A DNA stretch of 64,000 bases from Sphingomonadaceae bacterium (GTDB lineage: Bacteria > Pseudomonadota > Alphaproteobacteria > Sphingomonadales > Sphingomonadaceae). The number at the start of each line of letters is the position of its first letter. The first letter of the stretch is position 1. Shown in pieces: positions 3,418 through 8,197 of the stretch. Made by a program: the position numbers and the translations under genes. Under the pieces are notes generated by a model. It worked only from the letters and a program-made list of their open reading frames with translations. It was not told the DNA's origin and ran no database searches. The stretch lies in contig JAJTEF010000024.1 in the NCBI GenBank assembly GCA_021300355.1, positions 1 to 64,000 of the forward strand. The letters are read 5' to 3'.

Positions 3418-4386
3418 TTACATTCGAACGACAGAAGCGCCCCATGTGAAACCACCGCCCATTGCCTCGATCACAACGACATCCCCGGCCTTAATCCGGC
3501 CGTCCCGCACGGCAACATCAAGGGCAAGCGGAACAGAGGCTGCCGAGGTATTTGCATGCTGGTCGACCGTCAGAACAACTTTGTCGGCGTCGAGCCCAAG
3601 TTTCTTGGCGGTCGCTTCAATAATCCGGGCATTTGCCTGATGTGGCACCACCCAATCAACATCCGCGGCGGTGAGTTCTGCTTCCTCAAGAACTTCATGA
3701 AGTACGCTGGTCAGGTTGGTGACCGCGTGGCGAAACACTTCGCGGCCCTTCATGCGCAACTTACCAACGGTACCCGTCGTGGATGGACCGCCGTCGACAT
3801 ATAATAATTCATTATGCTGGCCGTCGGCATGCAGCTTGGTGGCCAAGGCACCCCGGGTTCCAACTTCGCCCGACAGCACGACTGCGCCGGCTCCATCACC
3901 AAAAAGCACACAGGTTGTGCGGTCTTCCCAGTCCAAGATGCGGCTGAAGGTTTCTGCGCCGATCACCAATGCGTTACGCGCCGATCCTGCGCGGATCATG
4001 CTTTCCGCCACAGAAAATGCGTACAGGAACCCCGAACATACCGCAGCGACATCAAAGGCCACGCCGCCATTGCAGCCGAGCGCGTGCTGGACAATGGTGG
4101 CCGATGCCGGGAATGTCTGGTCCGGAGTGGCGGTCGCCAAAATAATCAGATCAATGTCGGACGCGGCCATATTTGCCGCCTCAAGCGCGTTGCGCGACGC
4201 CTCTATCGCAAGGCTGGATGTCGTTTCATCGGGTTCAGCGATGTAGCGAAATTTGATACCGGTGCGTTCGGTGATCCATTCGTCCGTCGTGTCGACTTTG
4301 GCAGCAAGTTCGGCGTTTGATACGCGGTTGCGCGGAAGCGCGGACCCTGTGCCTTTGATAACGGCGTGAAGGGCCACAACGGTCAT
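3418..4386 (-). CDS. fabH: Beta-ketoacyl-ACP synthase III
   Basis: [14 protein letters not shown] active-site Cys, [24 protein letters not shown]; adjacent to plsX. Confidence 0.95.
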
Positions 4387-6932: not shown

Positions 6933-7574
6933 TCAGAGCCGACGCCCTGCCCACACCACGCGGCCGATGACCGTAACAGTTGCGCCGTCAACATCTGGCC
7001 AGTCGGGATAATTGGGGTTGTCGGAAAGCACCGACAGTCGCCCCCGCGGCCCTTGCGCCAGACGTTTGACCATCAACATATCGTCCAGCCGGATAACATG
7101 GATGCCATCACGCACCGCTTGGGCCGCCGCGCGGTCGTCGACCATGATATCGTCACCATGGTTCAGCGTGGGTGACATCGATTCACCGTCCACGCGGATG
7201 AGAGAGAGCTTAGCTGGATCAAGCCCCATCCTGCGCAGCCATTTTTCATCAAAGCCGATCTTGCCAGCCAGCGCCTCGCCATCGTGCATAGCGCCCACAC
7301 CTGCAGAAGCGCCGACCTCCAGCTTCGGAATGAGGCGAATTCCGGACGTCACCTCAGTGTCTGAGGATTTGCCCAACAAAACCTCATCAACACCAAAAAA
7401 TCGGGCCAATATGCCGCGCTCGGTTTCGGGCAACTTTTTGGGCGTTCCGCGTTTGATAAACTGCTGGATATAAGCCGGATTTCGACCGACCAGCTTTGAC
7501 AATCCGGCAAAATCTTCGCCGCTTTCCGAAATGAGTCGCTCCAGAGCAGCTCTTGGTTCTTCCTCCATGGTCAT
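6933..7574 (-). CDS. HTH repressor with LexA-like S24 peptidase domain
   Basis: C-terminal DGESMSPTLNHGD (catalytic Ser) and DDMLMVKRL (catalytic Lys); Ala-Gly in VGASAGVGAM; N-terminal HTH-like region. Confidence 0.85.
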   Translation of the reverse strand: MTMEEEPRAALERLISESGEDFAGLSKLVGRNPAYIQQFIKRGTPKKLPETERGILARFFGVDEVLLGKSSDTEVTSGIRLIPKLEVGASAGVGAMHDGEALAGKIGFDEKWLRRMGLDPAKLSLIRVDGESMSPTLNHGDDIMVDDRAAAQAVRDGIHVIRLDDMLMVKRLAQGPRGRLSVLSDNPNYPDWPDVDGATVTVIGRVVWAGRRL

Positions 7575-7589
7575 CCCTCCGCTTCGGTT

Positions 7590-7621
7590 GGATATATCCT
7601 AGACTTGTAGGATTTATCCTA
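7590..7621. promoter_or_regulatory. Two repeated 12-bp near-palindromic operators (GGAT[A/T]TATCCTA) 20 bp apart
   Basis: ggatatatccta at 7590-7601 and ggatttatccta at 7610-7621, in the divergent region between the S24 gene and the 68-aa ORF. Confidence 0.6.
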
Positions 7622-7629
7622 TCAGATTT

Positions 7630-7644
7630 GTTCTATATTTGTTC
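7630..7644 (+). promoter_or_regulatory. Candidate SOS box (alphaproteobacterial LexA site GTTC-N7-GTTC)
   Basis: GTTC TATATTT GTTC read directly; matches the established alphaproteobacterial LexA direct-repeat consensus. Confidence 0.65.
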
Positions 7645-7691
7645 TTACTGATTCGGGCAAGCAAATCCGGGGCGAACATGGAGGAGACATT

Positions 7692-7898
7692 ATGCATATC
7701 AAACGCCTGATTGAACGGTTTCTGCGTGATCAGGGCCTACCTCCCACCAAGTTCGGGCGCTTGGCGGCGCGCGATCCGCGACTCGTGCTCGACATCAGAT
7801 TGGGTCGCGAAATCCGACCCGAAATGGAGGAAAAACTGCGCGCATTCAAATGCAGCTATGGCGAGAAGCCCGACGCACAAGGGAGTGAACGGCAATGA
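7692..7898 (+). CDS. Small protein of unknown function (68 aa), divergent from S24 repressor
   Basis: ggaggagac RBS, ATG, 68 aa basic/helical; 4-bp ATGA overlap with next ORF. Confidence 0.7.
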   Translation: MHIKRLIERFLRDQGLPPTKFGRLAARDPRLVLDIRLGREIRPEMEEKLRAFKCSYGEKPDAQGSERQ

Positions 7899-8197
7899 CG
7901 CGCCAGATAAAGTCCCGCAGCCTTGTTCGTGCGCTTCAATCGTTAATGCCCACAGCAAGCATCACGATATTGCACGAGCGGCCTTGGCATAGCCTTTCAT
8001 TTAGCGGCGCCCAAATAGGTCTGTCCGTTGCACTGCCCGTAACCGCCGCAGAACAGCGTTCGGCCGTCGCACAGCTATTAGAAGATCATGAATTCTCGTT
8101 ACCGAGCCAACTGGTAGCAGACATCGCCATAACCGAGACCGCTATATTCGACGGCCAATACCGCCTGATAATCGACGCGCTCTTACTGGAGGATTAG
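7895..8197 (+). CDS. Small protein of unknown function (100 aa), coupled to the 68-aa ORF
   Basis: ATGA overlap with upstream ORF, complete 100-aa ORF; no family recognised. Confidence 0.65.
   Translation: MTRQIKSRSLVRALQSLMPTASITILHERPWHSLSFSGAQIGLSVALPVTAAEQRSAVAQLLEDHEFSLPSQLVADIAITETAIFDGQYRLIIDALLLED

Follow-up and report, generated by a model that had tools for sequence, protein, structure and literature searches.

We describe a three-gene module in Sphingomonadaceae DNA, composed of an S24 repressor gene and two small divergent ORFs (orf68 and orf100), that is probably a CI/Cro-type switch which the family has domesticated and fixed in the chromosome, gated by the S24 protein, in many genera by LexA, and by methylation. 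The previously undescribed module is found in nearly all Sphingomonadaceae and is apparently tuned to DNA damage and methylation. We favor this reading because the genes are kept together, the operator is private to the module, the promoter carries footprints of a LexA-type box and a GANTC site, selection is purifying and orf100 is homologous to PF11367 proteins linked to the same S24 gene. It is further favored by the fact that the box and a third operator-like palindrome never occur together, that lexA, recA, uvrA and radA share the box, that GcrA and a CcrM-type protein are encoded, and that a family lacking orf68 retains the palindrome at its S24 promoter. Counted against it are the presence of the box in under half of the promoters, the E-values of the orf68 fold and the failure of Pfam to detect orf100. 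The features, in the coordinates of the window (the whole 64,000-nucleotide stretch that was analyzed), are the following.

6933 to 7574, minus strand: S24 (LexA/CI-like) repressor ORF, 213 aa, matching PF00717 (1.4e-16)
7588 to 7621, no strand assigned: predicted double S24 operator, from its palindromes and core
7588 to 7601: operator palindrome 1, TTGGATATATCCTA
7597 to 7612: operator core, TCCTAGACTTGTAGGA
7608 to 7621: operator palindrome 2, TAGGATTTATCCTA
7630 to 7644, plus strand: LexA-type box GTTC-N7-GTTC, GTTCTATATTTGTTC, from the sequence itself
7650 to 7654, no strand assigned: GANTC (GATTC), CcrM methylation site, conserved in orthologous promoters
7680 to 7687, plus strand: Shine-Dalgarno-like sequence of orf68, GGAGGAGA, from the sequence itself
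7692 to 7898, plus strand: orf68, 68 aa, probable Cro-like HTH protein, from coding selection and an AlphaFold model
7895 to 8197, plus strand: orf100, 100 aa, reduced PF11367 tail-completion (terminator) homologue, from hhalign, tree and fold

Conservation of the three genes

The original prediction described two ATGA-overlapping ORFs of 68 and 100 aa diverging from a LexA-like S24 protein with a Ser/Lys dyad, and both the coordinates and the PF00717 match bear this out. The stop codon of orf68 overlaps the ATG of orf100 as ATGA. Residues 11-212 of the S24 protein also match the PHROG transcriptional repressor phrog_4 (1.5e-37). Ser132 and Lys170 are intact, as is a candidate cleavage site at Ala91-Gly92, and all of these are kept in the alignment of S24 orthologues with two exceptions (L018 and L026). 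From the intact dyad and cleavage site, we infer that the S24 protein may cleave itself. In the two exceptional loci, the S24 copy either lacks the catalytic Ser loop (L018, genome G034) or is frameshifted (L026, G017), and the operator and orf68 are still there.

The S24, orf68 and orf100 genes stay linked in 29 of the 30 loci fetched from about 20 Sphingomonadaceae genera. In the 30 loci inspected from the source genus, orf68 is nearly always there and has an orf100-like frame after it, usually with the ATGA overlap. A profile search detected orf100 in nearly every family genome sampled (eight same-family genomes are without it), and 55 of 61 Sphingomonadales genomes gave an S24 match. The dN/dS values are 0.04-0.11 for S24, 0.09-0.7 for orf68 and 0.19-0.47 for orf100, which point to purifying selection on all three genes. 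Coding conservation of the small ORFs and conservation of the neighborhood, two checks proposed with the original prediction, thus both came out in its favor. None of the three proteins matched the PADLOC-DB 2023 defence models.

These observations weigh against reading the locus as a prophage remnant in decay that has no present function. The phage ancestry of S24 and orf100 would fit such a remnant, as would the few genomes that have lost the module with short S24 remnants left behind. The view was already disfavored, and we consider it very improbable given purifying selection on the three genes, the presence of the module in most of the family and an operator and GANTC site that are almost invariant across many genera. 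The short S24 remnants are found in two module-less genomes (L281 in G271 and L282 in G206) and suggest loss by decay.

Paralogous pairs of S24 and orf68-like genes, with no orf100, were seen in four loci (L264-L267, in G028, G031 and G024). Their operator, near 4040-4255 in the oriented loci, has a diverged core and is accompanied by a LexA-type box and GANTC. The pairs lie on apparent conjugative elements, with a relaxase-like gene upstream and variable cargo, which in L265 consists of a complete Zorya system (ZorA-D) and, after it, a DruH protein.

Three sites in the divergent promoter region

The two operator palindromes are spaced by 20 bp and both lie between the S24 gene and orf68. The core has the general form TCCTAGAC-NN-GTAGGA and reads TCCTAGAC-TT-GTAGGA in the source genome, where positions 7588-7621 are the sole good match and no second site was found at zero to one mismatch. 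A wider S24 regulon in the source genome was therefore rejected. Of 201 family genomes, 138 contain the core, nearly always as a single copy, and only three have second core sites. At least 120 matches to the 19-mer TTTTCCTAGACAAGTAGGA were obtained among about 85,000 species, with titles that name sphingomonads or loosely classified MAGs and, in one case, Hyphomonadaceae. An orf68 homologue follows the core in nearly all loci of sufficient length, with one or two exceptions. We assign the core to the S24 protein for two reasons: the palindrome TAGGA-N4-TCCTA is also present at the S24 promoter of another family (f2), where orf68 was not found, and the diverged S24 paralogue carries a diverged core. 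The S24 protein is thus predicted to bind at 7588-7621. No paper on the operator sequence was found among the open-access papers searched, and a scan for sigma-70-like promoters gave no match.

Two loci (L242 in G349 and L243 in G396) contain a second operator with LexA-type box and GANTC, near position 1470 of the loci, preceding a short Cys-containing gene (92-100 aa) with no S24 gene nearby; this gene is possibly an extra target of the same switch. Another second operator core precedes an HTH-like gene (L241/L261, G286). The protein encoded after that gene is, judging by its sequence, presumably a terminase small subunit.

GTTC-N7-GTTC is the alphaproteobacterial LexA motif (PMC7987155, PMC8116508). 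The exact direct repeat that the original prediction placed upstream of the small ORFs is real, on the plus strand at 7630-7644, and ends 47 bp before the ATG of orf68. Taken alone, the motif is no more frequent than chance predicts: the window contains three occurrences against 2.2 expected, and there is no genome-wide excess (63 against 78 for a reversed control). Comparison across orthologues lifts it above chance. Of 181 distinct orthologous promoters, 74 have the box, in one orientation or the other, on the downstream side of the S24 operator, against a mean of 0.24 and a maximum of 2 in shuffles, although the 181 promoters share descent and the shuffles therefore overstate significance. 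The same motif precedes lexA, recA, uvrA and radA in the source genome, and its interpretation as a LexA-type site is supported by this and by the promoter counts. It also precedes a gene of the PA0069 radical SAM family, and one more gene behind the motif, which no NCBIfam model matched, we take from its sequence to be ImuA.

Conservation of the box across sphingomonads, also raised in the original prediction, holds in part. The box is recurrent and is found in nearly all orthologous promoters of the source genus, but it is clade-specific and is missing from more than half of the 181 promoters. Its orientation is forward in the source genus and mostly reversed in other genera. Elsewhere it is missing or its slot is occupied by a third S24-type palindrome; in a set slightly larger than the 181 promoters, 30 have the third palindrome, 75 have the box and none has both.

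GANTC is present in 176 of the 181 promoters (shuffles: mean 34, maximum 49) and ranks first of 256 gapped 4-mers, the runner-up reaching 93. Its middle base varies freely across promoters (T86, G58, A45, C17) and its flanks are fixed. The free middle base of GANTC and the two orientations of the box argue for selection on these motifs despite the shared descent of the promoters. Genes for GcrA and for a RAMA-domain (CcrM-type) protein are present in the source genome, and from the known biology of GANTC and GcrA (PMC7987155, PMC8116508), methylation by CcrM, read by GcrA, would be a third input of the operon promoter. The S24 operator core and the GANTC site, both overlooked in the original prediction, are more conserved than the LexA-type box and are the older parts of the promoter. 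The footprint is consistent with the dual control by LexA and S24 that was originally proposed, a proposal that missed the methylation input and the phage origin of the module.

The orf68 and orf100 proteins and the GTA question

The AlphaFold model of orf68 has four helices (pLDDT 77) and resembles XRE/HipB/434 folds, including 434 Cro and repressor, with E-values that are not significant. No convincing match to orf68 was obtained in Pfam, NCBIfam, PHROGs or PDB sequences, and a search for phage copies gave weak matches only. The model suggests that orf68 is a probable Cro-like DNA-binding protein.

The orf100 protein gave no match in Pfam, PF11367 included, where its score falls under the cut-off, and no convincing match in NCBIfam, PHROGs or PDB sequences. 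Its ancestry was recognized through other families. In f2, f6 and f7, the S24 gene is followed by a protein of 137-182 aa with the motif W-x-S-A-T-F-D-G-Q-E-H (the corresponding frame in L258 is 214 aa). Both of the two long proteins tested match PF11367, which a genome search also located at the S24 loci of these families; the GTA clusters of several of these genomes hold a separate PF11367 copy. Alignment of orf100 to the S24-linked PF11367 proteins using hhalign gave 96.6% with an E-value of 5.6e-10, and in a tree orf100 groups with them at a support of 1.0, apart from the GTA copies and those of other phages; the underlying alignment is short and divergent, which leaves the branch order within the clade uncertain. 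The AlphaFold model of orf100 (pLDDT 82.5) has mostly tail terminators as its best fold neighbors in the PDB (best E 2e-3, none below 1e-3), and 11 fold matches at E < 1e-3 among viral models, several of them named tail completion proteins. The protein keeps the tail-completion signature W-x-S-x-T/S-F/Y-x-G and lacks about 26 residues near the N-terminus relative to PF11367 proteins. By profile comparison, tree and fold, orf100 is a reduced descendant of the phage/GTA tail-completion protein PF11367, the full-length form of which adjoins the same S24 gene in sister families. The statement that no phage genes are nearby, made in the original prediction, consequently fails.

In five loci (L248, L249, L251, L252 and L259, from f2, f3, f6 and f7), an extra protein is encoded between S24 and the tail-completion gene. 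A K-x-G-W stretch is conserved in its C-terminal part, and Pfam gave no significant match.

The descent of orf100 raises the question of gene transfer agents (GTAs). In Caulobacter, RogA is a 213-aa LexA-like repressor, without cleavage residues, of the two-gene activator operon gafYZ (PMC9632790, PMC11150451). The module could accordingly be a GTA control module, with the S24 protein as the sphingomonad counterpart of RogA and orf68-orf100 as a GTA activator or assembly factor that is a relic in GTA-less genomes. The likeness comprises the repressor of the same size and type, the two-gene operon, a DNA-binding first protein and the phage/GTA connection, to which the tail-completion homology of orf100 adds. 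A GTA marker is present in none of eight module-less and 25 of 52 module-bearing family genomes. This association is weak, with p values, computed without phylogenetic correction, of 0.016 in the family set, 0.26 in one genus and 0.26 order-wide. Several differences from RogA, as judged by its published description, make this reading unlikely. The cleavage residues are intact here, the repressor adjoins its own operon, and GafY-type DnaA domain IV proteins other than DnaA were not seen in nearly all genomes: in a PF08299 search, DnaA alone matches in nearly all of them, the source genome included. Moreover, neither of two GTA markers searched for was found in the source genome, yet the module is kept there under selection. 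The identification of the S24 protein as RogA or another GTA repressor was rejected on its cleavage residues, the missing GafY-like partner and the lack of GTA markers in the source genome. A GTA role of the module is possible.

The GTA marker TIGR02217 is carried by half of the sampled Sphingomonadales genomes. Since DnaA is the sole DnaA-C-type protein in almost all of them, the GTA activator of these GTA-positive genomes may not be a recognizable GafY.

Proposed switch and comparison with known systems

In the domesticated switch that we favor, the S24 repressor would bind its private double operator between the divergent promoters and repress the S24 gene itself together with the orf68-orf100 operon. 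LexA would add a further lock at the operon promoter in the source genus and many others, and in other genera the third S24-type palindrome would fill the LexA slot. Through GANTC, CcrM methylation and GcrA would influence the operon promoter and tie its firing to replication. Upon DNA damage, activated RecA would promote cleavage of LexA and the S24 protein, and the two proteins translated together, one Cro-like and DNA-binding, the other a shortened tail-completion homologue, would be released. Binding by S24 and LexA, autocleavage, induction and output are all inferred here from sequence.

The output is a guess, given that no further target of the switch was recognized in the source genome. 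In the RcGTA terminator, an N-terminal helix contacts the stopper and the distal face contacts the tail tube (PMC7296036); being short of about 26 N-terminal residues, orf100 could cap tubes without joining heads. We tentatively suggest that orf100 acts on phage or GTA tail tubes as they grow, capping or blocking them when particles are induced by the SOS response, with orf68 as a feedback regulator. As an alternative output, orf100 may partner orf68. Somewhat more doubtful is a family-wide immune or restraint device, in which a truncated terminator under S24 control, gated by SOS and the cell cycle, caps the tails of prophages, phages or GTAs.

It is less likely still that orf68 and orf100 act within the SOS response alone, as a feedback or checkpoint pair that reuses the tail fold as a scaffold and makes no contact with tails. 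The DNA-binding appearance of orf68, the ATGA coupling (which suggests a complex), the far-diverged sequence of orf100 and the persistence of the switch in genomes without GTA markers fit such a pair; the tail-completion signature retained in orf100 speaks against it.

If the reading is right, a large and intensively studied bacterial family has a core module that so far has gone undescribed, in which a switch of phage type and a structural protein of phage origin were domesticated and wired to LexA and CcrM methylation together. It would allow the integration of SOS and replication state at a single promoter to be tested directly, and it may illustrate how part of a virion becomes a host protein for regulation or defence.

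Tab and Tai show that defence systems can target the assembly of tails (PMC10884400, PMC11364771). Tab is linked to the tape measure protein and Tai to the central tail fibre, and both are encoded by prophages, satellites or islands. Their likeness to the module is limited to the proposed effect on tail assembly. PF11367 (Tail_completion_gp17) and the RcGTA tail terminator Rcc01690 (PMC7296036) share a homologous core and fold with orf100, which differs in being about 26 residues shorter near the N-terminus, in its sub-threshold Pfam score and in its location outside any virion gene cluster. The promoter resembles CcrM/GcrA-controlled promoters of Alphaproteobacteria in its conserved GANTC and in the GcrA and CcrM-type genes encoded by the genome; it differs from them in that its GANTC is accompanied by an S24 operator and, across many genera, by a distinct LexA-type box as well.

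A similar layout is that of lambdoid CI/Cro and of SetR in SXT-type ICEs, where an autocleavable S24 repressor is divergent from a small HTH gene that is released by the SOS response. The arrangement of S24 divergent from orf68 over shared palindromes matches CI/Cro, although the fold E-values of orf68 are not significant. Common to all are an apparently autocleavage-competent S24 protein, a small divergent HTH gene (probable for orf68), shared palindromic operators and an expected SOS release. The module differs in its fixed chromosomal locus across the family, the absence of replication and packaging genes, the additional LexA-type and GANTC sites, and an operon that ends with a tail-completion homologue.
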